Origin: Azonexus sp.
GTDB lineage: Bacteria > Pseudomonadota > Gammaproteobacteria > Burkholderiales > Rhodocyclaceae
Reading direction: 5' to 3'
Assembly (NCBI GenBank): GCA_017983755.1
Contig: JAGOAU010000001.1
Coordinates: forward strand, 245,572-309,571
Length of the DNA: 64,000 nt
The notes beneath the pieces are model-generated. The model made no database searches. It was not told the DNA's origin and was given only the letters and a program-made list of their open reading frames with translations. Shown one piece after another: positions 8,527-63,661 of the stretch. How positions within the stretch are numbered: position 1 is the stretch's first letter; each line of letters begins with the position of its first letter. Position numbers and translations under genes: made by a program.

Positions 8527-9462
8527 ATGGTCGAAGTGGCTGCCGCTGTCATGCTGCGCGCCGGCGGCAGCGAATTCCTGCTGGCCCAGCGCCCTGCGGG
8601 CAAGGTCTATGCGGGCTACTGGGAGTTCCCCGGCGGCAAGGTCGAGCCCGGCGAAACGGTTCGCGCAGCACTCGTCCGCGAACTGCACGAGGAGCTCGGG
8701 ATCACGGTCACCGCCTGCTCACCCTGGCTGACCCGCGTGTTCACCTACCCACACGCCACCGTGCGCCTCAATTTCTGGCGCGTCACGGCGTGGGATGGCG
8801 AGATCGGCATCACTGCGCCGCTCGAACATAGTGCGGTCGACTGGCAAAAATGCGGCAAATCCGCCAGCGTCGCGCCGATCCTGCCGGCCAACGATCCGAT
8901 CCTGAAAGCGCTGGCGCTGCCGACGACGATGGCCATCACCATGGCCGAGAGCGAAGGCGTCGAACGCCAGCTGGAGCGGCTGGAAGAAGCGCTGAACGCG
9001 GGCCTGCGGCTGATCCAGGTGCGCGACAAGGGCTGGCCGCAGGCGCAGCGCCTGTGGTTCGCCGAGACCGTCGTCCGCCTCGCGCACAGCCATGGTGCAC
9101 TGGTTGTCATCAACGACGACGAGGAGATCGCCCGGCGCACCAGTGCCGACGGCGTGCACCTGTCGGCGGCGCGCCTGGCTGGCTGCAAGCAACGGCCGGA
9201 TTTCGCCTGGGTCGGCGCTTCCTGCCACGATGCTGTGGAAATCGCCCGGGCCGGCGAACTCGATCTCGATTACGCGCTGCTCGGCCCGGTGCTGCCGACG
9301 CCGACCCACCCGGAAGCGGTCGGACTCGGCTGGAACGGGTTCGCCGGGATGCTGGCCGGCAATACGCTGCCGGTCTTTGCGCTCGGCGGCATGCAACCGA
9401 CGCTGCTGGCCGCGGCCCAAGGCCAAGGTGCGCATGGCATCGCGCTTATGCGCGGCTGGTAG
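8527..9462 (+). CDS. Nudix hydrolase fused to a ThiE-like domain
   Basis: A 311-residue two-domain protein. Residues 1-130 are a MutT-like Nudix domain with a complete Nudix box (GGKVEPGET...RELHEELGI, residues 36-58), expected to hydrolyse oxidised nucleoside triphosphates such as 8-oxo-dGTP. Residues 135-311 resemble thiamine-phosphate synthase ([14 protein letters not shown], a VINDD segment, [31 protein letters not shown]). I chose the ATG at 8527; a GTG at 8518 overlapping the previous stop is an alternative. Its 3' end overlaps convergent yacG by 17 bases. The second domain may bind a nucleotide-like ligand rather than make thiamine phosphate. Confidence 0.85.
8830..8841 (+). repeat. 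GYTGCGGTCGAC site 1 (core only)
   Basis: The 10-base core TGCGGTCGAC is exact but is preceded by AG rather than GY. It lies inside the Nudix gene in the frame reading Ala-Val-Asp. Confidence 0.6.
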
Positions 9463-9643
9463 GGTCGGGATCGACGCCCGGTTCGCTGTGCTCTTCCTGC
9501 ACCGGAATCCGGTAGGAATCGCTGGCCCAGCAGCCGAGGTCGATCTGCTTGCAGCGCTCGGAACAGAACGGCCGCCACGGGTTTTCCGGCGACCAGAGCG
9601 ACTCGCCGCCGCATTGCGGACAGCGGACCTTGCGAACCGTCAT
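9446..9643 (-). CDS. yacG: DNA gyrase inhibitor YacG
   Basis: A 65-residue zinc protein. The four zinc ligands are Cys8, Cys11, Cys27 and Cys31 in CPQC and FCSERC, followed by the [14 protein letters not shown] segment typical of YacG. Family members bind GyrB and restrain gyrase. Its ATG overlaps the TGA of zapD by one base (TGATG), so translation is probably coupled in the order zapD-yacG. The 3' end overlaps the convergent Nudix gene. Confidence 0.92.
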
Positions 9644-10401: not shown

Positions 10402-10462
10402 GCTTATTTTGGCTTTTAAGAACGGAAAATTTCGCTAATTCTGAGCTATTTGCAGGCAAATC

Positions 10463-11769: not shown

Positions 11770-11773
11770 GCGC

Positions 11774-13138: not shown

Positions 13139-13233
13139 TTTCTCTCCCTGATCCTTGTTCCGCAAAGGCGGTAAATTACTCCAAAAGACCCGGCCGACCA
13201 AGGGCAGAGCCTGGTTTTGGCCGTTTTTGGCCA

Positions 13234-13245
13234 GTCGACCGCAAC
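13234..13245 (-). repeat. GYTGCGGTCGAC site 2 (intergenic)
   Basis: Exact GTTGCGGTCGAC on the minus strand, in the gap between the TrpB2 gene and the DOMON-like gene, about 65 bases before the latter. Confidence 0.75.
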
Positions 13246-13307
13246 AATCCGTGGTGCGAGCGGGTAAAGTACGGCCTGCGCTTTCCGACCGCCCCCAAAC
13301 CGACGCC

Positions 13308-13856
13308 GTGCCCGCTGCCCACGAACATTCCCTGCTCTGCCACCCCGCCAGTCGCTGCACTGCCGTGCATGGCGTTGCCGCCAGCGCCTGCCTGACGGCC
13401 GACGGCACCCTCGTCCTGCGCTACGACGTGCGCGGCGAACCGGACGGCATCAGCATTCCCGAACCCCAGCCATCCTGCGCGGCCGACGGCCTGTGGCAGC
13501 ACACCTGCTGCGAAGCCTTCGTTGCTGCGGTCGACGGCCCGGAATACCGCGAATTCAACCTTTCGCCTTCCGGCCAGTGGGCGGCTTATCGCTTTCCCGC
13601 CTACCGCGAGCGCGATGCCGCCTTCCTGCCGCTGGCCGCGCCGCATATTGCCGTCGCGCGCCACGCGGCCGGCTTCAGCCTGACCGCACGGATTGCCCCC
13701 GAACTGTTGCCGGGGGCCAAAACCCTCATCATCGGCCTGAGCGCCGTCGTCGAAGCCGCCGATGGCGGCAAGAGCTACTGGGCGCTCGCCCACGCCGGCG
13801 CGCAGCCCGATTTTCATCTCCGCCAGAGCTTCACGCTGACCCTGAACCGCCCATGA
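13308..13856 (+). CDS. DOMON-like domain protein
   Basis: A 182-residue soluble protein without signal peptide. The pattern (LRYDVRGEPD..., DGLWQHTCCEAFVA, YREFNLSPSGQWAAYRF) resembles DOMON-like/carbohydrate-binding beta-sandwich proteins found in proteobacteria. The ligand is unknown. The start is a GTG at 13308, the most upstream plausible start; there is no convincing ribosome-binding site. Its stop overlaps the ATG of the NamZ-like gene (ATGA), so the two are coupled. The conserved SPSGQW...Y core supports a real gene. Confidence 0.75.
   Translation: MPAAHEHSLLCHPASRCTAVHGVAASACLTADGTLVLRYDVRGEPDGISIPEPQPSCAADGLWQHTCCEAFVAAVDGPEYREFNLSPSGQWAAYRFPAYRERDAAFLPLAAPHIAVARHAAGFSLTARIAPELLPGAKTLIIGLSAVVEAADGGKSYWALAHAGAQPDFHLRQSFTLTLNRP
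13524..13535 (+). repeat. GYTGCGGTCGAC site 3
   Basis: Exact GCTGCGGTCGAC inside the DOMON-like gene, in the frame reading Ala-Ala-Val-Asp. Confidence 0.7.
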
Positions 13857-15070: not shown

Positions 15071-15081
15071 GGCCGCGCGCC

Positions 15082-16873: not shown

Positions 16874-18493
16874 TCAGGGCGGCGTGGAAGCAGCCCTGGA
16901 CTGTCGGGCAAGAACCCGTTCCGCGGCCACCACCCCGCGATACTGCGCCTCTTCGAACAGCGAAAAGCCGGACAGGTCGGCGTGCGCCAGGGCAATGCGC
17001 GGGTGGCGGAATTCGGCCAGTTTTTCGCGTTGACCGTACCAGAGGCTGCCCGGCACCGGGCGCCGCATGGCATGGCCGTTGCGGAAGATGTCGAGGCGGG
17101 TGGTCAGGCGGCGGATGTCGGGATGGACGCGTTCGAGCTCGGCGAGAATGCCCTCGGCCCAGGCCTCGCGCGGCGTTTCGAGCAGCAGGCGACGCCCCTC
17201 GGCAGGGGTAACGTCGTGCAGGGCGCGGTACCAGGTGAACACCGTGCCGCGCAGGCTGCGGCGGATCAACTGGTGGGTCGCCACCACGTAGCCGAGCCCG
17301 GCACTTTCGTAAAAGACGTTGTCCCAGGCCGGCGGCGCGCCGTGCCGCTCTTCCGGGAAATCAGCGAGGTGCAGGTTGGCGGTCAGCCAAGGCGCGTAAT
17401 CGCCGGCCAGCGCGGCGGCCTTGAGTGCGCCCGGCATGGCGCCCCAGACACGCGGCAGGACGAAGGCCGGCGCCGCCCAGATCAGTTGCCGCGCTTCGAT
17501 GCGGATGGTTTTTGCCCCGGCAAGCACGTCGACCGCAACCGACGACTTGCCTTCCTCGATACGCCAGACCAGCGCATCGCCCAGGATGCGCCCGGCAGCC
17601 TTCTGCGCCAGCCCGCGCGCCAGCCAGGCGTTGCCCTCTGGCGCGGTGAGCACGGCATCGCCGGCGGCGTTGGCCGCCGCACCATTGCGGCAGGCGAAAT
17701 AGTGCAGCCCGGCCCAGGCCGAGGTCTGGTCATGGGCCGTACCGTAGTCGTCGCGCGTCGCGTAGTTGGCCAGCCAGTGCAGGCTGGGCGCGGTGAAACC
17801 GTTGGCGGTCAGCCACTGGCTGAAGGACATGCGATCGAGCGCCCGCCATTCAGGGTCGCGGCTGGAGAGTTCCATCGGGATGGCGAAGAGGCGCCGGCCA
17901 CCGCTGCCACGGGCGTGTTTGAGTTCCTCCATCCGCTCGTGGAAGCGCCGCTGCTGCTCGCGCTCGTCGGCGTCGATGCCGCGATGCGGCAGCAGGCCCT
18001 CTTCCCACAGGCCGTGGCGATAGACCCGTTCCTGCGGTGTCGCACAAAGGAAGCGTTCGTCGTAGATCGGCTTCTCGGCGGCCGGATCGCCCTGCAGCAC
18101 ACCCAGTTCAGCGAGCAGCCGGCGGGCATGTACCGCCTCGCGCGGCGGCAGCGGCAGGTAGTGGGCGCCCCACGGGTAGGCGACGAGCGGACTCTGCCCG
18201 GCGCGCGAATTGCCGCCCGGCTCGCTTTCCATTTCGAGCACCAGGAAGTCGTCGACCGCAGCACTCGCCAATTTCCAAGCGGCCGACAGCCCGGAAATGC
18301 CGCCGCCGACGATGACGACACCGGTCCTGCGGGTGTCCGAGGGCGCCGGGAAACCGCCGTCGCGCAACCGGTGCCCGAGCGCGTGCGACATGCCGAGCAA
18401 TTCGCCGGGCGGCAGACCGGGTTTTCCGTTGGGCGCACAACCGGCAAGGGCGGCTGCCCCCACCGTACACAGAAAGTCGCGGCGGCTAGTCAA
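16874..18493 (-). CDS. Tat-exported lipoprotein flavoprotein (amine oxidase-type FAD domain)
   Basis: A 539-residue protein with a Rossmann FAD motif VVIVGGGISGLSAAWKL (about residues 60-75) and EMESEPGGNS after it, as in flavin amine oxidases and phytoene-desaturase-like enzymes. The N-terminus reads TSRRDFLCTVGAAALAGCAP: a twin-arginine motif followed directly by a lipobox, so a folded, FAD-loaded, membrane-anchored periplasmic protein is predicted. The start is a TTG at 18491-18493 overlapping the ftsX stop by 8 bases. The substrate is unknown. The open frame continues upstream inside ftsX, but that part is a shadow. Confidence 0.75.
   Translation of the reverse strand: MTSRRDFLCTVGAAALAGCAPNGKPGLPPGELLGMSHALGHRLRDGGFPAPSDTRRTGVVIVGGGISGLSAAWKLASAAVDDFLVLEMESEPGGNSRAGQSPLVAYPWGAHYLPLPPREAVHARRLLAELGVLQGDPAAEKPIYDERFLCATPQERVYRHGLWEEGLLPHRGIDADEREQQRRFHERMEELKHARGSGGRRLFAIPMELSSRDPEWRALDRMSFSQWLTANGFTAPSLHWLANYATRDDYGTAHDQTSAWAGLHYFACRNGAAANAAGDAVLTAPEGNAWLARGLAQKAAGRILGDALVWRIEEGKSSVAVDVLAGAKTIRIEARQLIWAAPAFVLPRVWGAMPGALKAAALAGDYAPWLTANLHLADFPEERHGAPPAWDNVFYESAGLGYVVATHQLIRRSLRGTVFTWYRALHDVTPAEGRRLLLETPREAWAEGILAELERVHPDIRRLTTRLDIFRNGHAMRRPVPGSLWYGQREKLAEFRHPRIALAHADLSGFSLFEEAQYRGVVAAERVLARQSRAASTPP
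17528..17539 (-). repeat. GYTGCGGTCGAC site 4
   Basis: Exact GTTGCGGTCGAC on the minus strand inside the Tat flavoprotein gene, frame Val-Ala-Val-Asp. Confidence 0.7.
18251..18262 (-). repeat. GYTGCGGTCGAC site 5
   Basis: Exact GCTGCGGTCGAC on the minus strand inside the Tat flavoprotein gene, frame Ala-Ala-Val-Asp, 711 bases from site 4. Confidence 0.7.
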
Positions 18494-22484: not shown

Positions 22485-23781
22485 TGAAAATGACCATGAA
22501 AAAGCTGTTGACCGCAGTCGTCGCCATTCTTGCCGCCCAGTCCGCGCTGGCCGGCGTCAAGATCGAGCACTGGGTGTCGCCGACCGGCGCCCGCGTCTAT
22601 TTCGTCGAAAGCCGCGTCCTGCCGATGCTCGATGTCCAGGTCGATTTCGCCGCCGGCTCGATGTTCGACCCGGACGGCAAGTCCGGCACCGCCGCGCTGA
22701 CCCGGTCGACGCTCGACCTCGGCGCCGGCACGCGCGACGAAACCGCCATCGCCGAGCAACTGGCCGACATCGGCGCCACCCTCGGCGGCGGCGCCGACAC
22801 CGACCGCGCCAGCGTCGCCGTGCGTACGCTGGCGGCGCCCGAAAAGCGCAATGCGGCAATCGACATCCTGCGCAACGTGCTGCAGGCACCACGCTTCGAC
22901 CCGGCCATCGTCGAGCGCGAAAAGGCGCGCACCGTTGCCGGCCTCAAGGAAGCGCTGACGCGCCCCGATGCCATCGTTGGCAAGGCCTTCTGGAGCGCCC
23001 TCTACCCGGCGCACCCCTACGGCCGGCAGGCGACACCGGAATCGGTCGCGGCGCTGACCCGCGACGAACTCGCCGCGCACCACGCCCGCTACTACACCGC
23101 CGCCAACGCCAGCATCACGCTGGTTGGCGACATCTCGCGCGCCGAAGCCGAGAAGATCGCCGAATCGCTGGTCGTCGGGCTGCCTGCCGGCGCTGCCGCC
23201 ACGCTGCCGGCAGCACCGGTCGTCGCCCCCGGCAAGAGCGTCGCCCTCGCCCACCCGGCCAGCCAGGCCCATGTGCTGATCGGCCTGCCGGCCATCGAGC
23301 GCGGCAACCCGGATTTCTTCCCGCTGCTGGTCGGCAACTACACACTGGGCGGCGGCGGTTTCGTCTCGCGCCTGATGAAGGAAGTGCGCGACAAGCGCGG
23401 CTACGCCTACAGCGTCTACAGCTACTTCTCGCCGCTCAGGCAGACCGGGCCGTTCCAGATCGGCCTGCAGACCAAGCGCTCGCAGGCACAGGATGCGATC
23501 AAGGTGACGCGCGACGTGCTCGATGGCTTCCTGAAGGAAGGCCCGAGCGCCGACGAGCTTGCCGCCGCCAAGGCCAACCTGACCGGCAGCTTCCCGCTGC
23601 GCCTCGACAGCAACAAGAAGATCCTCGACAACGTCGCGGTGATCGGCTTCTACGGGCTGCCGCTCGACTGGCTCGACCGCTATCAGGCCAGTGTTCAGGC
23701 AGTTACGGTCGACGCCGTGAAACAGGCATTTTCCCGGCGCGTGCGGCCGGCCGACCTGATGACGGTGACGGTCGCCGCCGA

Positions 23782-23785: not shown

Positions 23786-25092
<1,307 letters not shown>

Positions 25093-25108: not shown

Positions 25109-25141
25109 ACAAAAAACCCGCGAAATTCGCGGGTTTTTTGT
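25109..25141. terminator. Bidirectional intrinsic terminator
   Basis: An A6 run, an ACCCGCGAA/TTCGCGGGT stem and a T6 run form a near-perfect symmetric hairpin between the convergent ferredoxin and dynamin-like genes. It can act on both strands. Confidence 0.92.
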
Positions 25142-25142
25142 T

Positions 25143-25154
25143 GTCGACCGCAAC
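25143..25154 (-). repeat. GYTGCGGTCGAC site 6 (intergenic)
   Basis: Exact GTTGCGGTCGAC on the minus strand, placed directly against the terminator hairpin and 9 bases from the end of the dynamin-like gene. Confidence 0.75.
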
Positions 25155-35518: not shown

Positions 35519-35530
35519 GCTGCGGTCGAC
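35519..35530 (+). repeat. GYTGCGGTCGAC site 8 (intergenic)
   Basis: Exact GCTGCGGTCGAC in the ychF-MFS gap. It lies inside an 8-base inverted repeat (GGCGGAAT 35511-35518 with ATTCCGCC 35547-35554), and CCGGAAAAACCGG follows it directly. Confidence 0.75.
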
Positions 35531-35593
35531 CGGAAAAACCGGCCAGATTCCGCCTCCTCCCTGCCCGCCCGAACGCCCCCTGAAAGCGCACCC

Positions 35594-43462: not shown

Positions 43463-43954
43463 TCAGTTCTCCGGAAGGTATTTTTGCAGGAACAGCGCGT
43501 GCCCGGCGGCGGGGTCGAGCACGTAGGGCGCGAAGCCGGCGCGTTCGTAGGCGGCCAGCGCGCGCGTGTTGTTGGACAGGACTTCGAGCGTCAACTTGCA
43601 GCAGCCGAGTTCGCGCGCCCGCTGCTCGGCCCATTGCAGCAGGGCCTGGCCGACGCCCTGCCCACGCCGGTCGGCGCGGGTGACGATGTCGTGGATGTTG
43701 AGCAAGGGCTTGGCGGCAAAGGTGGAGAAGCCGGCGAAGCAGTTGATCAGGCCCACCGCCTCGTCGCCATTGTAGGCCAGCGCGCCGTGGAAGGAAGGCA
43801 GGTCTTTCAGTTCCCGCACCAGATTGGCCCTGGCGTATTCGGAGAGTCCGGCGCCGCCGCCCATCGGGTCGCGTGCATAGTGATCGAGCAGGTAGAGCCA
43901 GGCCGTGGAATTCGCCTCGTTTTTCAGGTCGACCGCAAGCACCCGCAAACTCAC
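43463..43954 (-). CDS. GNAT family N-acetyltransferase
   Basis: A 163-residue acetyl-CoA-dependent acetyltransferase. The pyrophosphate-binding motif is [18 protein letters not shown] (about residues 95-112), followed by [19 protein letters not shown]. Substrate unknown. The start is a GTG at 43954 overlapping the ubiD stop (GTGA); the frame is open further upstream inside ubiD, but that is shadow. Confidence 0.88.
43928..43939 (-). repeat. GYTGCGGTCGAC site 11 (one mismatch)
   Basis: CTTGCGGTCGAC on the minus strand: core exact, first base C instead of G. It lies 15 bases into the GNAT gene, frame Ala-Val-Asp. Confidence 0.65.
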
Positions 43955-45414: not shown

Positions 45415-45833
45415 CGCGTGCGGTAGGAAAAATGGCAGCCCAGGCAGGCGCCGGTCAGGTTGGGCAGCAGCGCCAGCGCCTGCTCGCGGTCGCCGCTCTT
45501 GGCAGCGGTCGCGAAGTCGCTGGCTGCCTTGTGGCCTTCCATGCCGATGCGGTGCATGGCCGGAGGCATATGCGGGCCGGGCCGCGCGTCGAACGGCAGG
45601 TCGCGGTGCTTGCCCATGGCCGACATGCCGAGCTTGGCCTCGGCTACCTCGCCGGCCTGCCTGATCTTGTTCTCGGCGACCAGCGACAGCACCTCGTTGA
45701 GCGCCATCAGGTTGGCCAGCATCTCCTGGCGCAGGGCTTCCTGCGCCGCTGCCGGCATCGGGGCCAACTGGCGCGGATCGTCGGCGACGGCTGCGGTCGA
45801 CGCCAGCAAAAGGGCAAAAACCAGGGCTTTCAT
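45411..45833 (-). CDS. Cytochrome c'-like periplasmic c-type cytochrome
   Basis: A 140-residue protein with a signal peptide ([17 protein letters not shown]) and a single heme-binding motif CLGCH at the extreme C-terminus ([13 protein letters not shown]), the position used by cytochrome c'. The rest is predicted as a four-helix bundle with a conserved [23 protein letters not shown] stretch (two parts). Cytochromes c' bind NO; an electron-transfer role is also possible. It is translationally coupled to ubiA upstream and ubiD downstream. Confidence 0.78.
45790..45801 (+). repeat. GYTGCGGTCGAC site 12
   Basis: Exact GCTGCGGTCGAC within the signal-peptide codons of the cytochrome gene (minus-strand gene, frame Ser-Thr-Ala). 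Confidence 0.7.
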
Positions 45834-46740: not shown

Positions 46741-46752
46741 GCTGCGGTCGAC
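46741..46752 (+). repeat. GYTGCGGTCGAC site 13 (intergenic)
   Basis: Exact GCTGCGGTCGAC in the 44-base gap between the LplT-fusion stop and the ubiA start. Confidence 0.75.
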
Positions 46753-46764
46753 CGCCGGAATGGC

Positions 46765-48645
46765 CTATTTTTCCGGGCCGCGCAGGGCCAGCACCCGGGC
46801 ATGCAGTGTTTTCGGGCTGGCTTCCGCCGCCGCTACCGGCGGCCCGGCACGCAAGCTGATCCGCGCGAACAGCCCGCGCCGGAACGGGGTTTTCATCGCT
46901 TCGCCATCGACCCGCGAGAAGTAGCTGCCCCACAGCCCGGACAGCGCCAGCGGCACGACCGGCACCGGGTTGGCGGCGAGAATGCGCGAAATGCCGGGGC
47001 GGAAGGGCTGCAGTTCGCCGTCGCGGGTGATGTTGCCCTCGGGGAAGATACCGACCAGTTCGCCCGCGGCCAGCGCGGTCGACACCTCGGCGAAGGCCTT
47101 TTCCATCAGCGCCGGGTCTTCCTTGGCCGCGGCGATGGGAATCGCGCCGCAGTGACGGAAGACGTAGCTGAGAACCGGTATGCGGAAGATGCGATGGTCC
47201 ATGACGAAGCGCACCGGGCGCGGCGCGGCGCCCATGATGATTACCGCATCGACGAAGCTGACGTGGTTGGCGACGATGACCGCAGCCCCCTCTTCCGGAA
47301 TATTTTCCAGCCCTTCGCTGCGCAGCCGGTAGGCGGCCTTGATCAGCAGCCAGGCGATGAAGCGCAGCAGGAATTCCGGCACCAGCCCGTAGATGTAGAT
47401 CGCCACCGCCGCGTTGAGCAGCGCCGCGATGCCGAACAGCGCCGGGATCGACAGCCCGGCGCTCAGCAGCGCCGCCGCCCCCAGCGCACCGACGACCATG
47501 AACAGCGCGTTGACGATGTTGTTGGCGGCGATGATGCGGGCGCGCGTTTCCTCGGCGCTGCGCAACTGGACCAGCGCGTAGAGCGGCACGATGAAGAAGC
47601 CGCCGAAGACGCCAAGCATCATCAGGTCGAACAGCACGCGCCAGATTGCCGGCAGGCTGAGCAGCGCCAGTAATTCGTGCGTGCCGTTGCCGGCGAGGCC
47701 GACCGGCGAAGCGAAATACATATCGAGCCCGAACAGCGTCAGGCCGATCGAGCCGAAAGGCACGAGGCCGATCTCGACGCGCTTGCCGGACATGCGTTCG
47801 CAGAGCAACGAGCCGAGGCCGATGCCGACCGTAAACGTCGCCAGCAACAGCGTCACCGACGACTCGCTGCCGCCCAGCACGTTCCTTGCGTAGGCCGGGA
47901 ACTGGGCGAGGAACAGCGCGCCGTAGAGCCAGAACCACGAAATACCGAGGATCGACAGGAAGACCGTGCGGTTGGCACGCGCGAAGTTGATGTTGCGCCA
48001 GGTTTCGGTGACCGGATTGGGGTTGACCTTGAGCCCGGGCGCTGGCGCCGGTGCCGCCGGGATGCCGCGGCTGGCCAGATAACCGGCGAAGGCGACGACG
48101 AAACCACCGAGCGCGATCCACGCCGGATGTTCGACCGATCCGGCGAGCAGGCCGCCGGCCAGCGTGCCGACCAGGATGGCGACGAAGGTGCCGGCCTCGA
48201 TCAGCGCATTGCCGCCGACCAGTTCGTCGGTATGCAGGTGCTGCGGCAGGATCGCGTACTTGACCGGGCCGAACAGCGTCGAATGCAGGCCGAGCAGGAA
48301 CAGCCCGCCCATCAGCAAGGGCAGGCTGTGCATGAAGAAGCCGGCGGCGGCGACGCCCATGATGACCATTTCCAGCACCTTGACCAGGCGCGCCAGCATC
48401 GCCTTGTCGTACTTGTCGGCCAGTTGCCCGGCCGTCGCCGAGAACAGGAAGAAAGGCAGGATGAAGATGCCGGCCGCCAGGTTGGCCAGCAGTTCAGGCT
48501 TGAGTGTCGTCCATTGCGCCGACTGGAAGGTGAGCAGGACGACCAGCGCGTTCTTGAACAGGTTGTCGTTGAAGGCGCCGAGGAACTGCGTCGCGAAGAA
48601 GGGGGCGAAACGCTTTTGCTTGAGGAGTCCGAATTGTCCGCTCAT
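46765..48645 (-). CDS. LplT-like MFS transporter fused to a PlsC acyltransferase
   Basis: A 626-residue two-part protein. Residues 1-410 are a 12-helix MFS domain of the lysophospholipid flippase type (FFATQFLGAFNDNLFKNALVVLLTF start). Residues 430-626 are a glycerophospholipid acyltransferase with the NHVSFVD and FPEGN motifs of the PlsC fold. It is expected to flip lysophospholipids inward and re-acylate them. A separate acyltransferase/ligase gene lies upstream, so the E. coli LplT-Aas system is present with one acyltransferase domain in excess. Confidence 0.88.
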   Translation of the reverse strand: MSGQFGLLKQKRFAPFFATQFLGAFNDNLFKNALVVLLTFQSAQWTTLKPELLANLAAGIFILPFFLFSATAGQLADKYDKAMLARLVKVLEMVIMGVAAAGFFMHSLPLLMGGLFLLGLHSTLFGPVKYAILPQHLHTDELVGGNALIEAGTFVAILVGTLAGGLLAGSVEHPAWIALGGFVVAFAGYLASRGIPAAPAPAPGLKVNPNPVTETWRNINFARANRTVFLSILGISWFWLYGALFLAQFPAYARNVLGGSESSVTLLLATFTVGIGLGSLLCERMSGKRVEIGLVPFGSIGLTLFGLDMYFASPVGLAGNGTHELLALLSLPAIWRVLFDLMMLGVFGGFFIVPLYALVQLRSAEETRARIIAANNIVNALFMVVGALGAAALLSAGLSIPALFGIAALLNAAVAIYIYGLVPEFLLRFIAWLLIKAAYRLRSEGLENIPEEGAAVIVANHVSFVDAVIIMGAAPRPVRFVMDHRIFRIPVLSYVFRHCGAIPIAAAKEDPALMEKAFAEVSTALAAGELVGIFPEGNITRDGELQPFRPGISRILAANPVPVVPLALSGLWGSYFSRVDGEAMKTPFRRGLFARISLRAGPPVAAAEASPKTLHARVLALRGPEK

Positions 48646-49862: not shown

Positions 49863-52000
49863 ACCGCCTCCGCCAAGCGCTTCAAGGTCACGTAATCGAC
49901 CTTGCCGGTACCCAGCAGCGGCAGCGACTCGACGCGATGGATCTTGCGCGGCACGGCCAGTTCGGGGACGCCGAGTTCGCGCGCTTTGGCGGCCAGCAGT
50001 TCGCGGCTCAGTTCGCCATCGGTGGTGAACAGCACCAGCGCCTCGCCCTTGGCGGCGTCGGGCTGGCTGGAAACGGCGTGCGCCTTGTCCGGCGAAGTCG
50101 CGGTCGCCACTTTTTCGGCGACTTCCAGGCTAACCATCTCTCCAGCAATCTTGGCGAAGCGCTTGACCCGGCCGACGATCTTCACGAAACCCTCGTCGTC
50201 GATCTGCACCACGTCACCGGTTTCGTACCAGCCGTCCCCAAGTTCGGAAAGCGGCGGCTGCAGCACGCCCGGCTGGTCGGCCTTGAGGTAGCCGGACATG
50301 ACGTTGGGGCCGCGCACATGCAGGATGCCGCCGTGCTCGATGCCGGTAACCGGCAGCAGGCGATGTTCTATACCCGGCAACAGGTTGCCGACGGTGCCGG
50401 TTTTGTAGGCCATGGGCGTGTTGACCGCGAGCACCGGCGCCGTCTCGGTGGCGCCATAGCCTTCGAAGATGCGCAGGCCGAACTTTTCGAACCACTGGTT
50501 GCGCACCGCCTCGGAGAGCTTTTCGGCGCCGGCGACGACGTAGCGCAGGCGGTAGAAGTCGTAAGGATTGGCGAACTTGGCGTAGTTGGCGAGGAAGGTC
50601 GAGGTGCCGAACAGCACCGTGCAGCCCCGGTCGTAGGCCAGCTCGGGAATCACCCGGTAGTGCAGCGGCGAGGGGTAGAGGAAGAGGCTGGCGCCGTTCA
50701 ACACCGGCAGCAGCGCCCCCGCCGTCAGGCCGAAGGAATGGAAGATGGGCAGCGCATTGAGCACCTTGTCGTACACCGAAAAATCAATGACGGCGCGAAT
50801 CTGCGCGATGTTGGCGAGAATCGCCCGGTGCGGCAGCACGACGCCCTTCGGCTTGCCCTCCGACCCGGAGGTGAACAACACGACGGCAGCTTCCTCGGGT
50901 GAGGTTTTCAGTTCGAAGGCGCGTGGAAAGTGGATGGCGTAACCGATCAGCCATAGCTTGTCAGCCAGACCGATCTGCTCACGGATGTCTTCCAGGTAAT
51001 GCACTTGCACCCCCTTAAGCCCGGCCAGCTTGTCGGTCAGCTTGCCCTGCTCGACAAAGGCGCGCGAGGTGATAACGGTACGGATCTCGGCGCCGTCGCA
51101 GGCGGCCTGCATGGCATCGACACCGGCCGTGTAATTGAGCATGGCCGGCACCCGGCGGCGGGCGCTGAGGCCGAAGATCAGCCCCAGGGTCGGCACCAGA
51201 TTGGGCAGCAGCAAACCGACGCGTTCGCCGGGCTTGGTCAGGCGTTCGACCTGGCGCGCGAGGATGAGCGCCATCTTCAACAGATCGTTGTACGAATATT
51301 CGATCTGCTTGACGTCCTCGAACGGGCGGCGGCCGCGACCGAAGATTTCCGCCGCGTCGCACAGCGCAGTGTAGATCGTCTGCTCGGGGCGCGAGGCGAA
51401 GATCATTTCCTGCATCAAGCGGCGCATCTGCTCGCCGGCCTTGCGTCGCCGCTGCTTGGCGGTGGCCGCTTCGGGCATCGGAAAGTGCGCTTCGGGCAGC
51501 ACGGTTAACTTGATTTTCGGAAAGATTTCCTTCGGATGGCGGCCGGACAAACGCGAGAAATACGAGCGCGAGGCGCCGTCCAGGCGCACCGGAATCACCG
51601 TCGCGCCGGTCTTGGCGGCGACGAAAGCCGGGCCGTCATAAACCTTCATCAGCGAGCCGGTCAGCGTGATGCGCCCCTCCGGAAAGATGACCACCGGGCG
51701 GCCGGATTCGATCAGCCGGATAACCTTCTTCATCGCCATCGGGCTGGTCGGATCGACCGCCAGGTAATCGACCTGCGACAGCAGGATGCGGAACCAGAAG
51801 CTGTTGGCGATGCTAGTATGGACGACGAAAACCGGGTCGATCGGCAGGAACAGGCCGAGCAGCAGGCCATCGAGGAAGGATTCGTGATTGGCGACGATGA
51901 GCAGGCGCTCATGCGAGAAATCGGACTGCCGGAACTGGATGTCGACACGGAACAGCAAACGGGCCAGGCCGCGCAACAGCGGCCGCAATACCTTGCGCAT
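49859..52000 (-). CDS. aas: Acyltransferase/acyl-ACP synthetase (Aas-like)
   Basis: A 713-residue bifunctional enzyme. Residues 1-190 are a PlsC acyltransferase domain with NHESFLD (Asn38, His39, Asp44) and FPEGR. Residues 200-713 are an AMP-forming acyl ligase with LFTSGSEGKPKG and a GYGATETAP motif. It is expected to acylate lysophosphatidylethanolamine and to activate fatty acids onto ACP at the inner membrane. It shares one base with the arsR stop (TGATG) and overlaps the lipoprotein gene, so it is in the arsR operon. Confidence 0.92.
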   Translation of the reverse strand: MRKVLRPLLRGLARLLFRVDIQFRQSDFSHERLLIVANHESFLDGLLLGLFLPIDPVFVVHTSIANSFWFRILLSQVDYLAVDPTSPMAMKKVIRLIESGRPVVIFPEGRITLTGSLMKVYDGPAFVAAKTGATVIPVRLDGASRSYFSRLSGRHPKEIFPKIKLTVLPEAHFPMPEAATAKQRRRKAGEQMRRLMQEMIFASRPEQTIYTALCDAAEIFGRGRRPFEDVKQIEYSYNDLLKMALILARQVERLTKPGERVGLLLPNLVPTLGLIFGLSARRRVPAMLNYTAGVDAMQAACDGAEIRTVITSRAFVEQGKLTDKLAGLKGVQVHYLEDIREQIGLADKLWLIGYAIHFPRAFELKTSPEEAAVVLFTSGSEGKPKGVVLPHRAILANIAQIRAVIDFSVYDKVLNALPIFHSFGLTAGALLPVLNGASLFLYPSPLHYRVIPELAYDRGCTVLFGTSTFLANYAKFANPYDFYRLRYVVAGAEKLSEAVRNQWFEKFGLRIFEGYGATETAPVLAVNTPMAYKTGTVGNLLPGIEHRLLPVTGIEHGGILHVRGPNVMSGYLKADQPGVLQPPLSELGDGWYETGDVVQIDDEGFVKIVGRVKRFAKIAGEMVSLEVAEKVATATSPDKAHAVSSQPDAAKGEALVLFTTDGELSRELLAAKARELGVPELAVPRKIHRVESLPLLGTGKVDYVTLKRLAEAV

Positions 52001-56181: not shown

Positions 56182-57647
56182 CCATCAGCACCACCTTCAT
56201 CAAATCCATCCAGGACATCATGCGCCAGGATGCCGGCGTCGATGGCGACGCGCAGCGCATTTCCCAGCTCTCCTGGCTGCTCTTCCTGAAAATCTTCGAC
56301 GATCAGGAAACCGAACTGGAAATCCTGCGCGACGCCTACAAGTCGCCGATTCCCGACCACCTGCGCTGGCGCCACTGGGCGGCCGACAGTGAAGGCATGA
56401 CCGGCGAGGAACTGCAGGATTTCATCAACAACACCCTCTTTCCCAAGCTCAAGAACCTCAACGCCGACCCGCTGCGCAACCCGCGCGGCTACGTCGTCCA
56501 GCAGGTCTTTGAAGACGCCTTCAACTACATGAAGTCCGGCCACCTGCTGCGCCAGGTGGTCAACAAGATCAACGAGATCGACTTCAACAACCGCAGCGAC
56601 CGCCACCTCTTCAACGACCTCTACGAAAAGATCCTCAAGGACCTGCAAAGCGCCGGCAACGCCGGCGAGTTCTACACCCCGCGCGCCGTCACGCAATTCA
56701 TGGTCGACACGGTCAACCCGCAAATCGGCGAAAAAATCCTCGACCCCGCCTGCGGCACCGGCGGCTTTCTCGCCTGCACCCTCGAACACCTCAAGGCGCA
56801 ACGCAAGAACGTCGAGGACGACACCGTGCTGCAAGCCGCCATCCACGGCGTCGAAAAGAAGCAGATGCCGCACCTGCTGTGCACCACCAACATGCTGCTG
56901 CACGGCATCGAAGTGCCCAGCAACATCCGCCACGACAACACCCTGTCGCGCCCGCTCGTCGATTACGGCCCGCGCGACCAGGTCGACGTCATCCTCACCA
57001 ACCCGCCCTTCGGCGGCACCGAGGAACCCGGCACCGAAGCCAACTTCCCCGCCGACGTGCGCACCAAGGAAACCGCCGACCTCTTCCTCGTGCTCATCAT
57101 CGAACTGCTCAGGCACAACGGCCGCGCCGCCGTCGTCCTGCCCGACGGCACGCTGTTCGGCGAAGGCGTCAAGACGCGCATCAAGGAAAAGCTGCTCAGC
57201 GAGTGCAACCTGCACACTATCGTCCGCCTGCCCAACGGCGTCTTCGCGCCCTACACCGGCATCAAGACCAACCTGCTCTTCTTCACCAAGGGCGCGCCGA
57301 CCCGCGAAGTCTGGTACTACGAGCACCCCTACCCGCCCGGCTACAAGAGCTATTCCAAGACCAAGCCCATCCGCATCGAGGAATTCGCCGCCGAAAAAGC
57401 CTGGTGGGGCGACGAAGCCGACGGCTTCAAGGCCCGCGTCGAAAACGAGTACGCCTGGAAGGTCGACATCGCCACGCTGAAAGCCGCCAACTACAACCTC
57501 GACCAGAAAAACCCGCACAGCCCCGACGCCATCGCCCACGACCCCGACGCGCTTTTGGCCGAATACGGGCGGTTGACCGCAGAAGCCCAGCAACTGCGCG
57601 ACCAACTCAAGACCATCCTCGCGCAATCGCTGGCAGGGCAGGCATGA
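56178..57647 (+). CDS. hsdM: Type I methyltransferase M subunit
   Basis: A 489-residue N6-adenine DNA methylase subunit. The SAM-binding motif is DPACGTGGF (about residues 189-197) and the catalytic motif is NPPF (275-278). The helical N-terminal domain and the C-terminal HsdS-contacting region are complete. Both ends overlap neighbours by 4 bases (fic and hsdS), so the three are translationally coupled. Confidence 0.95.
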   Translation: MTISTTFIKSIQDIMRQDAGVDGDAQRISQLSWLLFLKIFDDQETELEILRDAYKSPIPDHLRWRHWAADSEGMTGEELQDFINNTLFPKLKNLNADPLRNPRGYVVQQVFEDAFNYMKSGHLLRQVVNKINEIDFNNRSDRHLFNDLYEKILKDLQSAGNAGEFYTPRAVTQFMVDTVNPQIGEKILDPACGTGGFLACTLEHLKAQRKNVEDDTVLQAAIHGVEKKQMPHLLCTTNMLLHGIEVPSNIRHDNTLSRPLVDYGPRDQVDVILTNPPFGGTEEPGTEANFPADVRTKETADLFLVLIIELLRHNGRAAVVLPDGTLFGEGVKTRIKEKLLSECNLHTIVRLPNGVFAPYTGIKTNLLFFTKGAPTREVWYYEHPYPPGYKSYSKTKPIRIEEFAAEKAWWGDEADGFKARVENEYAWKVDIATLKAANYNLDQKNPHSPDAIAHDPDALLAEYGRLTAEAQQLRDQLKTILAQSLAGQA

Positions 57648-59416
57648 GCGCCAAACTGGAAGCCCGCGAACCCGTCGCCCGCTACCTCGCCACGCCGCCG
57701 CTGCTCCAGCACTTCGACCGCGTCGCCCAGGCCCCCGGCGGCGTCGCCCGCCTGCGCGAACTGATCCTGACCCTGGCCGTGCAGGGCAAGCTGCTCCCGC
57801 AAGACCCGGCAGATGAGCCGGCCAGCGTGCTACTGGAGCGCATCCGCGAGGAAAAGGCGCGGCTGGTCAAGGCAGGGAAGATCAGGAAAGACAAACCGCT
57901 GGCGGCGATAGAGGAGGAGAAGCAGTTTGCGCTGCCGGCGGGGTGGGAGTGGGTAAGGCTTATCCAGTTGCTAACGAAAATTGGCGCCGGTAGCACGCCG
58001 CTTGGTGGCAAAGAGGTTTACGTTTCAGAAGGCATCAAATTCCTGCGCTCTCAAAACGTGTGGAACGAAGGTCTGCGTCTAATCGATGTTGCCTATATCA
58101 AGCCAGAGACGCACATGAAAATGTCGGGCACTACGGTTTTTGCTGGCGACATTCTTTTCAACATTACCGGCGCATCAATTGGCCGCTGCGCAGTTGTCCC
58201 AACAACCTTCGATGAGGCAAATGTCAGTCAGCACGTAACCATAATTCGTCCGACGCTACCAACAGTAACTCCCTACCTGCATTTGGTATTGATCTCGCCT
58301 CACGTTCAACAGACCGTTATGGATGTCCAGGTCGGGGTATCGAGAGAAGGATTGAGCATTGGAAAGCTTGGCCTGTTCCTCGTACCTATTCCTCCACTTG
58401 CCGAACAATCCCGCATCGTCGCCCGTGTCGAGGAATTGATGGCGCTGTGCGATGCGCTGGAGGACAAGGGGCAACTGGCAGCGGCGCAGCATGAGCGGCT
58501 GGCCGGGGCCTTGCTCGACGCGCTGGCCAACAGCGCCTCGGCCGAGGAAGCCGCCGAGCACTGGCAGCGCATCGCCGCCCACTTCGACCTGCTGCTCGAC
58601 CGGCCTGCTGCGGTCGACCGCCTGGAACAGGCCATTTTGCAACTCGCCGTCCGCGGCCGCCTCGTCCCGCAAAACCCCGCCGACAAACCCGCCAGCGCCC
58701 TGCTTCAAAAAATCCGCACCGAAAAAGACCACCTGATCGCCACCGGCCAACTCAAACGCGACAAACCCCTGCCGCCGATCAGCGACGAGGAGAAGCCGTT
58801 TGCGTTGCCTGATGGTTGGGAGTGGGCAAGATTCGGCGAACTGATTCTTTCTAGCGATGCTGGCTGGAGTCCGAGTTGCGAATCGACTCCACGTGAGGGC
58901 AATGAATGGGGCGTTCTCAAGGTAAGTGCCGTTTCATGGGGAGAATTCCGCCCGGAGGAAAACAAGGCCCTGCCTGCTGGCCTATTTCCGAAACCCGAGT
59001 TCGAGGTCAAGCCGGAAGACTTTCTTCTTTCTCGCGCAAACACTGAGGAATTGGTGGCGCGTAGCGTTATCGCTTGGGAACCTCCAGGCCGATTGATGAT
59101 GAGCGACAAGCTGATTCGCCTGCGTCTCTCCAGCCATATCGACAAAGCGCTTTACTGTGAGATCAACAACTCCAGACTGTCACGAGACTATTACATCGTT
59201 AATGCCTCTGGCACTAGCAGCTCAATGAAGAACGTTTCCCGGGAAGTTATATTGAAGCTCATGGTTCCGGTTCCGCCCGCTCCAGAACAATCCCGCATCG
59301 TCGCCCGCGTTGCCGAACTGCGCGCCCTGTGCACCCAGTTGCGCGACCGCCTCGCCACCACCTCTCAGACCCGGTCCCGGCTCGCCGAAGCGCTACTGGA
59401 GCAAGCCGTCGCGTGA
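57644..59416 (+). CDS. hsdS: Type I specificity subunit
   Basis: A 590-residue specificity protein with two target-recognition domains (roughly nucleotides 57950-58400 and 58830-59285), each opened by a GWEW segment and closed by a PP-x-x-EQSRIVARV helix start. The two halves are a tandem repeat of the same plan. Both recognition domains have lower G+C (about 47-50% in sampled lines) than the conserved arms, as expected for exchangeable modules. It chooses the bipartite DNA target; the sequence recognised cannot be read from this data. ATG at 57644 overlaps hsdM; the open frame upstream is shadow. Confidence 0.93.
   Translation: MSAKLEAREPVARYLATPPLLQHFDRVAQAPGGVARLRELILTLAVQGKLLPQDPADEPASVLLERIREEKARLVKAGKIRKDKPLAAIEEEKQFALPAGWEWVRLIQLLTKIGAGSTPLGGKEVYVSEGIKFLRSQNVWNEGLRLIDVAYIKPETHMKMSGTTVFAGDILFNITGASIGRCAVVPTTFDEANVSQHVTIIRPTLPTVTPYLHLVLISPHVQQTVMDVQVGVSREGLSIGKLGLFLVPIPPLAEQSRIVARVEELMALCDALEDKGQLAAAQHERLAGALLDALANSASAEEAAEHWQRIAAHFDLLLDRPAAVDRLEQAILQLAVRGRLVPQNPADKPASALLQKIRTEKDHLIATGQLKRDKPLPPISDEEKPFALPDGWEWARFGELILSSDAGWSPSCESTPREGNEWGVLKVSAVSWGEFRPEENKALPAGLFPKPEFEVKPEDFLLSRANTEELVARSVIAWEPPGRLMMSDKLIRLRLSSHIDKALYCEINNSRLSRDYYIVNASGTSSSMKNVSREVILKLMVPVPPAPEQSRIVARVAELRALCTQLRDRLATTSQTRSRLAEALLEQAVA
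58403..58425 (+). repeat. 23-base direct repeat in hsdS, copy 1
   Basis: This 23-base word, which begins GAACAATCCCGCATCG, recurs exactly at 59284-59306. It encodes the EQSRIVAR helix start at the end of the first recognition domain and is a candidate recombination arm. Confidence 0.85.
58607..58618 (+). repeat. GYTGCGGTCGAC site 14
   Basis: Exact GCTGCGGTCGAC in the conserved central arm of hsdS, frame Ala-Ala-Val-Asp. It is the only copy in the restriction locus. Confidence 0.7.
59284..59306 (+). repeat. 23-base direct repeat in hsdS, copy 2
   Basis: Identical to 58403-58425, at the end of the second recognition domain. Confidence 0.85.
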
Positions 59417-60081: not shown

Positions 60082-60084
60082 GGG

Positions 60085-60573: not shown

Positions 60574-60695
60574 CGGGGCGATACCGGGCAGGTGTAGGGA
60601 TGCCCGAGTTTAAGGCAAGAGCGCATTCGGCAGCGCCGCGGCAATTCAGGCTGTCCGCGCTGCGGGCGCGCTAGAATCTGCTTTCCGCGCCGCCT

Positions 60696-60707
60696 GTTGC
60701 GGTCGAC
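60696..60707 (+). repeat. GYTGCGGTCGAC site 15 (intergenic)
   Basis: Exact GTTGCGGTCGAC in the gap before the alpha/beta hydrolase gene, 23 bases before its ATG. Confidence 0.75.
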
Positions 60708-60729
60708 CCTCAAAAAAGTCCGAAAACCG

Positions 60730-61620: not shown

Positions 61621-63661
61621 GCAGCTCCTCCCGCGACCCGAGCCAGCGCTGCAAATGGCGCTCGGCGAGTTCGGGATGCCCGGTCAGCATTTCCTCGGCC
61701 ACATCGCGCGCCATTTCGACCAGATCGGCATCCATCTCCAGGTCGGCGTAGCGCAGCAGCGGCACGCCGCTCTGCCGGCTGCCGACGAATTCGCCGGGGC
61801 CGCGGATCTGCAAGTCCTGGCGGGCGATCTCGAAGCCATCGGTACTCTCGTAGATGATCTTCAGCCGCTGGCGGGCGATTTCGCCGAGAGGGCCGGCGTA
61901 GATCAGCACGCAGTTCGACTCGTGCGCGCCGCGCCCGACGCGGCCGCGCAGCTGGTGCAGTTGCGAGAGGCCGAATCGCTCGGCGTGCTCGATGACCATC
62001 AGGCTCGCGTTCGGCACATCGACGCCGACTTCGATCACCGTCGTCGCCACCAGCACGTCGATGTCGCCGGCAGCGAAGGCGGCCATGACCGCCTGCTTTT
62101 CGTCGGCCTTGAGGCGGCCATGCACCAGCCCCACGGTCAACGCCGGCAAATCGGCCAAAAGCGTTTCATAGGTTTCCTGCGCGGTCTGCAACTGCAGGGC
62201 TTCCGATTCCTCGATCAGCGGGCACACCCAGTAGGCCTGCCGGCCTTCCTCGACGTGCTTTTTGACGAAACCGACGACATCCTCGCGCCGGCTGTCGGCG
62301 ACCAGCCGCGTCTTGATCGGCGTGCGGCCGGGCGGCAGCTCGTCGAGCACCGTCACATCGAGGTCGGCGTAATAGCTCATGGCCAACGTGCGCGGGATCG
62401 GCGTCGCCGACATCATCAGCTGGTGCGGGTTGTTGCCCTTCTTGCGCAGCGCCAGGCGCTGGGCGACGCCGAAGCGGTGCTGTTCGTCGACGATGGCCAG
62501 GCCGAGTCTGGCGAAATCGACGCCATCCTGGATCAGTGCGTGGGTGCCGACGACCAATTGCGCCTCGGCCGCCGTCGCCGCCAGTTGCGCCCGCTTCGCC
62601 GCGCTCTTGAGGCTGCCGGAGAGCCAGGCGACCTTGATGCCGAGCGGTTCCAGCCAGTCGCGCAATTTGACGTAATGCTGCTCGGCGAGAATTTCGGTCG
62701 GCGCCATGAAGGCCGCCTGCCAGCCGGCCGAAATCGCCTGGCAGGCCGCCAGCGCGGCGACGATGGTCTTGCCGGCACCGACATCACCCTGCAACAGGCG
62801 CTGCATTGGATAGGGCTGGGCGAGGTCGGCGCCGATTTCGGCCATCGCCCGCAACTGCGCGCCGGTCAGAGCGAATGGCAACCCGTCGAGGAGACGTGCA
62901 CCGAGGTCGTCCTGCGCCACCAGCACCGGCGCCCCCTGTTCGCGGCGGGCCAGGTAGGCGCGGCGCAGGGACAGTTGCTGGGCTAGCACCTCGTCGAACT
63001 TGACGCGCCGCCAGGCGGGGTGATTGCGTGCGTGCAGCGTGTCGAGATCGGTGCCCGGCGGCGGCCGGTGCAGGAAGCGCAGGCTGCGCGCCAGGCCGGG
63101 CAGTTGCAGGCGTTGGCGCAACACCTCGGGCAGCGTGTCCGAGAGATCGCCGGCTGCCAGCGCCTTGCCGATCAGCTTTTGCAGCGTCGCATTGCCGACG
63201 CCTGCGGTCGACGGGTAAACCGGGGTCATTTCCGTCGGCAGCGGATCGTCCTCGCCGACCTTGTGAAAACGCGGGTGCACCATTTCGGCACCAAAGAAAC
63301 CGCCGCGCACTTCGCCGAAGGCACGGACCCGCGCGCCTTCGCTCAGGGCGGCCTGCTGGCTGGGGTAGAAGCTGAAGAAGCGCATCACCAGTTCGCCACT
63401 GGCATCCTGCGCGCGGACGACCATCTGCCGGCGCGGCCGGAACTGGACCTCGCAGGAACTGACGACGACCTCGACCTGCACCGGCTCGCCCCAAGGCGCC
63501 CGGGCGACCGGCGTGATGCGGGTTTCGTCCTCGTAGCGCAGCGGCAGGTGCACCAGCAAATCGGCCTCACTGTGGAGGCCGATCTTTGCCAGTTTCTTGC
63601 GCAGCGCTTCGGAGGCGCGAATGGGGGCAGAAGCGGGAACCGAAGCCCCGGCAGCGCTCAT
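61610..63661 (-). CDS. recG: ATP-dependent DNA helicase RecG
   Basis: A 683-residue fork-remodelling helicase. The N-terminal wedge/OB domain (about residues 60-150) precedes Walker A GDVGAGKT (about 291-298), the DEQH motif in IVDEQHRFGVAQR, SATPIPRT, and the motif VI region QLRGRVGRG. The C-terminal TRG region (IYESTDGFEIARQDLQIRGPGEFVGSRQSG in two stretches) is complete. It starts 7 bases after the RidA gene stop. Confidence 0.96.
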   Translation of the reverse strand: MSAAGASVPASAPIRASEALRKKLAKIGLHSEADLLVHLPLRYEDETRITPVARAPWGEPVQVEVVVSSCEVQFRPRRQMVVRAQDASGELVMRFFSFYPSQQAALSEGARVRAFGEVRGGFFGAEMVHPRFHKVGEDDPLPTEMTPVYPSTAGVGNATLQKLIGKALAAGDLSDTLPEVLRQRLQLPGLARSLRFLHRPPPGTDLDTLHARNHPAWRRVKFDEVLAQQLSLRRAYLARREQGAPVLVAQDDLGARLLDGLPFALTGAQLRAMAEIGADLAQPYPMQRLLQGDVGAGKTIVAALAACQAISAGWQAAFMAPTEILAEQHYVKLRDWLEPLGIKVAWLSGSLKSAAKRAQLAATAAEAQLVVGTHALIQDGVDFARLGLAIVDEQHRFGVAQRLALRKKGNNPHQLMMSATPIPRTLAMSYYADLDVTVLDELPPGRTPIKTRLVADSRREDVVGFVKKHVEEGRQAYWVCPLIEESEALQLQTAQETYETLLADLPALTVGLVHGRLKADEKQAVMAAFAAGDIDVLVATTVIEVGVDVPNASLMVIEHAERFGLSQLHQLRGRVGRGAHESNCVLIYAGPLGEIARQRLKIIYESTDGFEIARQDLQIRGPGEFVGSRQSGVPLLRYADLEMDADLVEMARDVAEEMLTGHPELAERHLQRWLGSREELLKS
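63201..63212 (+). repeat. GYTGCGGTCGAC site 16 (one mismatch)
   Basis: CCTGCGGTCGAC: core exact, first base C instead of G. Inside recG, frame Ser-Thr-Ala on the coding (minus) strand. Confidence 0.65.

Follow-up and report, generated by a model that had tools for sequence, protein, structure and literature searches.

Introduction

In the Pasteurellaceae, the uptake signal sequence (USS) is described as a 9-nt core followed on its 3' side by two AT-rich segments, the whole measuring at most 32 nt. The Hin-type core AAGTGCGGT and the Apl-type core ACAAGCGGT have GCGGT in common and differ at positions 3-5, the extended forms are given as eHin-USS AAAGTGCGGTCAATTTT and eApl-USS AACAAGCGGTCAAATTT, and the same source describes the receptor as still unproven (PMC12616744). 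The spacings within the signal come to approximately single helical turns, segments 2 and 3 of Hin being separated by 12 positions (PMC1626085), and GCGG is reported to be crucial for uptake and the tracts to interact with the core (PMC7811141). The accessible text of a 2026 terminator survey names only two known uptake-sequence families (PMC13020248). Here we describe a dispersed element in a 64,000-nt stretch of Azonexus sp. DNA (the window; assembly GCA_017983755.1, contig JAGOAU010000001.1, positions 245,572 to 309,571) that, to judge from its sequence, very probably serves a third bacterial family, the Azonexaceae, as a DNA-uptake signal of the USS type in natural transformation.

We favor this reading because of the anatomy of the element, its dialects, its retention at orthologous sites and its absence from a foreign insertion. 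NCBI taxonomy places Azonexus and Dechloromonas in the Azonexaceae, within the Rhodocyclales and Betaproteobacteria, and the group occurs in wastewater and other environments. Among the literature matches listed, which comprise open-licence papers only and leave absence from print unproven, none names an uptake sequence in the Azonexus/Dechloromonas group.

Results

One word is over-represented on both strands

The window contains 16 copies of the core word TGCGGTCGAC, split 9:7 between the plus and minus strands, compared with 0.27 copies expected from 100 dinucleotide-preserving shuffles (none of which attains 16) and 0.67 under an order-3 Markov model of the window. The source draft genome, 74% complete with 2,515,346 bases spread over 43 contigs, contains 295 copies in forward and 291 in reverse orientation, whereas the same word read backwards is found 5 + 8 times (586 vs 13). 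We supplemented such whole-genome pattern counts with a 455.7-kb sample, composed of the window and 20 further stretches of the source genome, in which 105 copies were present against 5.27 expected under an order-3 Markov model (20-fold) and 10.2 under an order-5 model (10-fold). Under both models TGCGGTCGAC ranked first among the 50,565 10-mers tested, all present at least three times in the sample. Over-representation of one word on both strands, within as well as between genes, is a property of the uptake-sequence class.

One could imagine that base composition or codon usage in a GC-rich genome produces the word, which fits well with a high-GC codon table (Ala-Val-Asp, Ser-Thr-Ala), but the Markov counts and the rarity of the reversed word refute this and leave it a negligible probability. 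Using a rough home-made gene caller that labeled 83% of the sequence as coding, and whose errors touch observed and expected counts alike, we found 33 of the 105 copies outside called genes or on their edges, where ~18 were expected (binomial p=0.0004). Within genes, 41 copies run along the gene direction and 31 are opposed to it, with every reading frame used.

These results bear out most of the original prediction, made from the letters of the window. The 16 core positions and their strands are all as claimed, as are the estimate of ~0.3 expected copies, the extension to GYTGCGGTCGAC in 13/16 copies, the pyrimidine preceding the core in 15/16 and the lack of strand bias. The over-representation withstands the genome-wide Markov comparison that had been proposed as a check, and the argument that protein or codon constraint fails to explain the word holds in view of sites in all frames, on both gene strands and in excess outside called genes.

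The sample of the source genome also contains two places where overlapping copies form a 14-bp palindromic double site, TGCGGTCGACCGCA. Separately, an inverted motif pair lies at G000:C1:32031-32074 (L002) of the source genome, its members (32031/32065) lying 34 bp apart and enclosing A and T tracts, an arrangement that we liken to the uptake-sequence hairpins described in terminators of the two known families, as far as the accessible text of that survey goes (PMC13020248).

A directional element with two A/T tracts on one side

Aligning the 105 copies revealed a directional element of ~33 bp, G-Y-TGCGGTC[G/A]AC-N4-A-tract-N6-W-tract. On the 5' side of the core, G occupies position -2 in 86% of copies, C or T position -1 in 89% and G position -6 in 63%; on the 3' side, C is found at +12 in 62% and G at +21 in 70%. 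An A-rich tract at +14..+18 has 58-78% A/T, against 36% for the genome sample as a whole, and a W-tract at +25..+28 reaches 83-98% A/T, with T or C next to it at +29 (91%) and then C at +30 (70%). The two tracts lie ~10 bp apart, with no comparable tracts upstream of the core: at least 6 of the 7 tract positions are A/T downstream of 70/105 sites, compared with 0/105 at the mirrored upstream positions. As the flanks are near background before about -6 and past about +31, the copies are not parts of a longer repeated element. Single-mismatch forms of the core also carry the tracts, mainly TGCGGTCAAC (13/24 with at least 6/7) and CGCGGTCGAC (8/30). Thus the core word of the original prediction was right and its extent incomplete, with ~20 more bases downstream that hold two A/T tracts, and with variants such as TGCGGTCAAC.

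At least 6/7 tract positions are A/T in 9 of the 16 perfect cores of the window, and 4 or 5 in the other 7; 9 further flanked variant sites are present:

8830..8863, plus strand: USS-like site, core 8832-8841, AG-TGCGGTCGAC, flank A/T 7/7
13212..13245, minus strand: USS-like site, core 13234-13243, GT-TGCGGTCGAC, flank A/T 7/7; TrpB-like gene
13524..13557, plus strand: USS-like site, core 13526-13535, GC-, flank A/T 5/7
17506..17539, minus strand: USS-like site, core 17528-17537, GT-, flank A/T 4/7
18229..18262, minus strand: USS-like site, core 18251-18260, GC-, flank A/T 4/7
25121..25154, minus strand: USS-like site, core 25143-25152, GT-, flank A/T 7/7; between convergent called genes
28157..28190, minus strand: USS-like site, core 28179-28188, GT-, flank A/T 4/7
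35519..35552, plus strand: USS-like site, core 35521-35530, GC-, flank A/T 5/7; intergenic, directly past ychF
38325..38358, plus strand: USS-like site, core 38327-38336, GC-, flank A/T 6/7; PBP4-family gene
39909..39942, minus strand: USS-like site, core 39931-39940, GT-, flank A/T 5/7
43906..43939, minus strand: USS-like site, core 43928-43937, CT-, flank A/T 6/7
45790..45823, plus strand: USS-like site, core 45792-45801, GC-, flank A/T 7/7; outside called genes, retained in two relatives
46741..46774, plus strand: USS-like site, core 46743-46752, GC-, flank A/T 7/7; outside called genes, retained in one relative
58607..58640, plus strand: USS-like site, core 58609-58618, GC-, flank A/T 6/7
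60696..60729, plus strand: USS-like site, core 60698-60707, GT-, flank A/T 7/7; at a called gene start
63201..63234, plus strand: USS-like site, core 63203-63212, CC-, flank A/T 5/7; within recG
6028..6061, plus strand: variant site AACGGTCGAC, AT flanks 6/7
17007..17040, minus strand: variant site TACGGTCAAC, AT flanks 6/7
22485..22518, minus strand: variant site TGCGGTCAAC, AT flanks 6/7
23702..23735, plus strand: variant site TACGGTCGAC, AT flanks 7/7
30872..30905, plus strand: variant site TGCGGTCAAC, AT flanks 6/7
50398..50431, minus strand: variant site CGCGGTCAAC, AT flanks 6/7
56706..56739, plus strand: variant site CACGGTCAAC, AT flanks 6/7
57550..57583, minus strand: variant site TGCGGTCAAC, AT flanks 7/7
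62130..62163, plus strand: variant site CACGGTCAAC, AT flanks 7/7; within recG

The flanked motif in bulk is limited to one genus

Scanning the genome contigs of 84,980 species with a strict 32-base pattern, which other dialects would escape, returned 25 loci, 23 of them in records named Dechloromonas, Azonexus or Rhodocyclaceae, one in 'Ca. Accumulibacter necessarius' and one in 'Proteobacteria bacterium SZAS-72'. We then counted the flanked pattern CGGTCGAC-N6-AAA-N6-WWWW, with the reversed pattern as control, and found 198 sites in the source genome vs 0 reversed matches. Among the 16 genomes behind the strict-pattern loci, D. denitrificans ATCC BAA-841 has 191 flanked sites and D. hortensis MA-1 has 186; counts are likewise high in Dechloromonas sp. 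H13 (238), UBA6271 (219) and Azonexus sp. R2A61 (146), and low in D. hankyongensis (3), SZAS-72 (2) and Accumulibacter (1). Across the GTDB genus of the source (Azonexus/Dechloromonas), 63/76 genomes have at least one flanked site, 39/76 have 20-289 and 37/76 have fewer than 20, with 2 reversed-pattern matches in all 76 together. Outside the genus, a 399-genome sample of the order gave one flanked site in 17/393 genomes and none in the rest, not above the reversed control, and 7 genomes from other genera of the same family had 0 flanked sites. The flanked motif in bulk is therefore limited to one GTDB genus, whose carrier stretches, as read here, have a G+C of 54-69%.

The strict-pattern copy of Ca. 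Accumulibacter necessarius UW12 (L043, 7089-7120, minus strand) has full flanks and is the single flanked site of its genome; it may reflect chance, transfer of DNA from a carrier or assembly contamination.

Species differ in the 5' part of the motif

Comparing the two bases that precede flanked CGGTC[G/A]AC between genomes (designated by G numbers), we found dialects. A TG leader dominates in the source genome (87/114), G020 (23/31), G022 (11/11), G078 (10/11) and G071 (7/8), a CA leader in G061 (20/31) and G011 (17/25), and in G030 the leaders are mixed (CA 13 and GA 13 of 34). The interior differs as well, with CAA outnumbering CGA in G063 (19/32) and TG accompanied by CAA in 6/10 sites of G014. 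Sister-dialect forms of the motif include TTCACGGTCGAC and CAGCGGTCAAC, and in G063 the 11-mers CAGCGGTCAAC and CAGCGGTCGAC are enriched, with 7 copies each in 80 kb. Leaders are also exchanged in place: at orthologous positions, TATGCGGTCGAC of the source genome corresponds to TACACGGTCGAC in G061, and GTTGCGGTCAAC of G020 to TCCACGGTCAAC in G011.

Across five species that each have 0 to 3 flanked sites, the tracts accompany 1/61 copies of CGGTCGAC, and in 80-100 kb of each of five site-poor species no word is enriched as strongly as the TG or CA words of carriers; the best 10-mers of site-poor species reach z up to 10.6, vs 9.9 for the AG words of G063, so that a weak dialect could escape.

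Two genomes show other enriched words, namely the 11-mers CATGCCGGACA and CCGGACATGCC in G020 (L122-L125, L023; 15-16 copies in 100 kb) and TCGGGGGAGAA and GCATCTGGGAC in G061 (L106-L109; 8-9 copies in 80 kb), which point to further repeats, dispersed or local.

The dialects and the anatomy both bear on whether the word is a restriction-modification or orphan-methyltransferase site, or a highly iterated palindrome resembling HIP1. The palindrome GTCGAC that it contains and the two double sites noted above would agree with such a role, but conservation reaches out to about +31 on a single side, doubling into a palindrome is confined to those two places in the sample, and it is the 5' part that varies by species while the tracts stay constant, making this explanation very unlikely.

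Sites are retained between carriers, and gained or lost within the genus

To compare orthologous positions, we aligned sites by their 270-bp surroundings between carriers (at least 40 flanked sites) or between carriers and non-carriers (at most 9), leaving out intermediate genomes and pairs with flank identity of at least 0.93. In carrier pairs, CGGTC[G/A]AC was retained in 162/251 cases (62 sites) at a flank identity of 0.79, compared with 1367/6370 for identical control 8-mers. In pairs with non-carriers it was retained in 6/144 (52 sites; control 8-mers 667/3657) at a flank identity of 0.77, a value biased downwards since the sites were picked in carriers. Averaged per site, as one comEC site gives many pairs, retention was 0.66 over 62 sites in carriers and 0.08 over 52 in non-carriers. 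The core is thus far from absent at orthologous positions of close relatives, the outcome that would have spoken against the original prediction, provided that those relatives are carriers. At one position, directly past ychF, 30 genus loci could be compared: the site is found in the source genome only, 28 loci are without it, and the contig of the nearest relative stops there.

On a tree of 68/76 genomes (8 with a missing or partial ychF were left out; pth and rplY were found in 65 each), carrier state changes at least 14 times. The source species and its nearest relative, G071, adjoin five species whose genomes have 3 to 18 sites, a picture resembling loss with remnants in decay, on a tree that cannot separate gain from loss.

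The element is also sparse in recently acquired foreign DNA, as in the uptake class, a statement that rests on one informative case: the 48.5 kb inserted into comEC of the carrier G067 (D. hortensis) contain 0 flanked sites vs 10 in the adjoining 40 kb. Insertions in site-poor genomes (43.3 kb with 1 flanked site in G085, 33.7 kb with 0 in G002) carry little weight.

A mobile repeat of the repetitive extragenic palindrome doublet (REPIN) or miniature inverted-repeat transposable element (MITE) type, spread by copying, would account for the high copy number and strong consensus. Against this, conservation ends at about -6 and +31, many copies lie inside genes in several frames, orthologous copies switch dialect in place, and non-carrier DNA aligns through the site, gap-free in 124/162 alignments over the 12 leader-and-core columns examined; we regard such a repeat as highly improbable. 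Somewhat less remote, and still unlikely, is a chromosome-wide binding site of a nucleoid-organising, segregation or nucleoid-occlusion protein, which hundreds of scattered copies, the excess outside genes and the absence from the foreign island would fit too, and in whose favor the phased A-tracts count, as these bend DNA. However, strand counts are even (295/291), no clear regional bias is seen (Kolmogorov-Smirnov p=0.18, for 51 plus-strand positions among the matches listed in the first 2.18 Mb of the 3.57-Mb G061 contig), and fewer than 20 flanked sites in 37/76 species with at least 14 state changes would be odd for a housekeeping system. Species dialects and a layout that copies the USS would also be left unaccounted for.

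Competence genes and candidate receptors

As in the uptake class, carriers encode ComEC and type IV pilins. Family cut-offs were exceeded in 68 of the 76 genus genomes for ComEC, in 70 for a ComP_DUS-family pilin (PF16732) and in 69 for a GspH/FimT-family pilin (PF12019). Classing comEC by hand gave 56 intact genes, 19 that are broken or partial (for some, the only cut is the end of a contig) and 1 genome without a match; for the 39 carriers the corresponding numbers are 32, 6 and 1, the last being the source draft. Sites are fewer where comEC is broken or partial (median 3 vs 46, Mann-Whitney p=0.023, or 0.036 for within-contig breaks), and the link between comEC integrity and motif presence is weak.

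Matching pilins to dialect or presence tied no pilin to either, and pil gene order does not follow dialect; an orphan prepilin of the source genome is also present in non-carriers. The source pil locus contains a pilE-like gene and a FimT-like gene followed by further reading frames without family match, which we take for further pilins and PilY1. The minor-pilin loci of the source genome (L146, G000:C23:98001-118000) and G071 (L266, G071:C25:36500-45500) are arranged differently, while YchF is 99% identical, which suggests exchange of the type IV minor-pilin locus within the genus.

We also observed that comEC is repeatedly split by insertions of ~20-65 kb, mostly near ComEC-model positions 145-166 or 590 (G002:C33, G089:C1, G067:C22, G005:C9, G099:C1, G060:C1, G085:C1 and G018:C8; L247-L256). 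The one in G002, for instance, encodes a serine recombinase together with a type ISP restriction enzyme, and that of G085 a C5 DNA methylase; such insertions recall the mobile elements described as being in conflict with transformation (PMC4774983, PMC11472951).

Discussion

A USS-type uptake signal would work as follows. The type IV competence pilus would bear a surface DNA receptor, probably one of the minor pilins, that contacts the G/C-rich core, and the two A/T tracts, one helical turn apart, would ease bending or kinking of the DNA. The bent loop could then be pulled through the outer-membrane pore formed by the secretin PilQ, and ComEC would pass one strand into the cytosol. Motif-bearing DNA would in this way be taken up preferentially, recombination of the imported DNA would spread sites over the genome (molecular drive), and the net effect would be preferential exchange with close kin. 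Of the three options offered by the original prediction, a DNA uptake sequence draws good support from the anatomy, the dialects, the orthologous retention and the absence from the foreign insertion. A nucleoid-organising site would not predict the one-sided tracts, the dialects or the absence from about half of the species, and a methylation or repair site agrees poorly with the lack of strand bias, the directional ~33 bp and the changing 5' part.

Several observations weigh against an uptake signal. The 105 perfect copies are accompanied by 183 singly mismatched ones over 30 variants, the commonest with 30 copies, and in the sample of the source genome the spacing of TGCGGTCGAC is no more even than random. 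The AG dialect of G063 is weak (AG in 10/32 flanked sites, GA in 6/32), and in G020 and G061 other repeats outrank the motif among enriched words. At least 20 sites are present in 6/19 genomes with broken or partial comEC and fewer than 20 in 24/56 with intact comEC; comEC integrity and carrier state are not significantly associated (Fisher p=0.067, or 0.10 for within-contig breaks), nor is a phylogenetic pairs test of comEC integrity against the motif significant. ComEC was not found in the source draft, which says little with a quarter of the genome missing, and a search there for DNA resembling the comEC locus of the nearest relative came back empty, which proves nothing. Pilins of PF16732 and PF12019 are found whether or not a genome is a carrier, leaving no receptor assignable, the FimT frame of the carrier G020 is stop-interrupted (possibly a sequence error, as its counts match those of a metagenome-assembled genome), and G071 has the TG dialect yet a differently arranged pil locus. 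Finally, the literature matches listed include no uptake or transformation experiment for the genus.

The signal shares with that of the gammaproteobacterial Pasteurellaceae a one-sided two-tract plan, an inner GCGGTC(A)A and the alternatives TGCGGT and AGCGGT, and we lean modestly toward the view that the Azonexaceae signal either arose independently or derives from a very old common code. If so, not history but the mechanics with which a conserved pilus-tip receptor works and DNA kinks would dictate the word, and receptor and code could be read against each other in a single genus that has three or more dialects and has undergone many gains or losses. With core and plan nearly identical across classes, whether receptor and DNA mechanics set the code becomes testable, and the receptor could be sought along the natural series that the dialects and the many gains or losses within the genus provide. 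Laboratory transformation of Azonexus and Dechloromonas might also be eased by putting the motif on the DNA used.

Comparison with known uptake signals

The DNA uptake sequence (DUS) of the Neisseriaceae, which are also betaproteobacteria in NCBI's sense, comprises GCCGTCTGAA and its dialects, with ComP as receptor. The present element resembles it in having species dialects and many copies in coding DNA, and pilins of the ComP_DUS family are found in 70/76 genus genomes, without tracking motif presence. It differs in being another word with AT flanks, the DUS being described as continuous and without AT tracts (PMC1626085, PMC12616744). With the cyanobacterial HIP1 (GCGATCGC) it shares the character of a very abundant short genomic word (PMC4390886), but HIP1 is palindromic and our element is directional with AT tracts.

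The closest resemblance is to the Pasteurellaceae USS, in the directional core with two 3' A/T tracts at about helical-turn spacing, the variable bases immediately 5' of an invariant part and the copies on both strands and within genes. The TG and AG dialects have the inner GCGGT in common with the USS, some forms share GCGGTCAA, and the two leaders parallel the two USS types: TGCGGTCAA, part of a source-genome variant, lies within eHin-USS AAAGTGCGGTCAATTTT, and AGCGGTCAA, part of a G063 form, within eApl-USS AACAAGCGGTCAAATTT, going by the strings printed in PMC12616744.

The differences are also clear. The core is GYTGCGGTC[G/A]AC or a dialect of it, with C[G/A]AC added, and not AAGTGCGGT or ACAAGCGGT; CA and GA leaders yield ACGG instead of GCGG; and the first tract lies ~6 bp farther from GCGGT, with ~10 bp between tracts vs the 12 given for Hin (PMC1626085). 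Density is lower, at ~233 perfect cores/Mb in the source genome vs ~817/Mb computed from the Hin count in the same source, and the excess of perfect over singly mismatched copies described there (PMC1626085) is lacking here (105 vs 183). The hosts are GC-rich and of another class, the named carriers being Dechloromonas and Azonexus rather than Pasteurellaceae. Based on the strict core and the ratio of perfect to mismatched copies, the element is not a member of the Pasteurellaceae USS family, and yet, from its sequence plan, it looks as though it were built to work like one.

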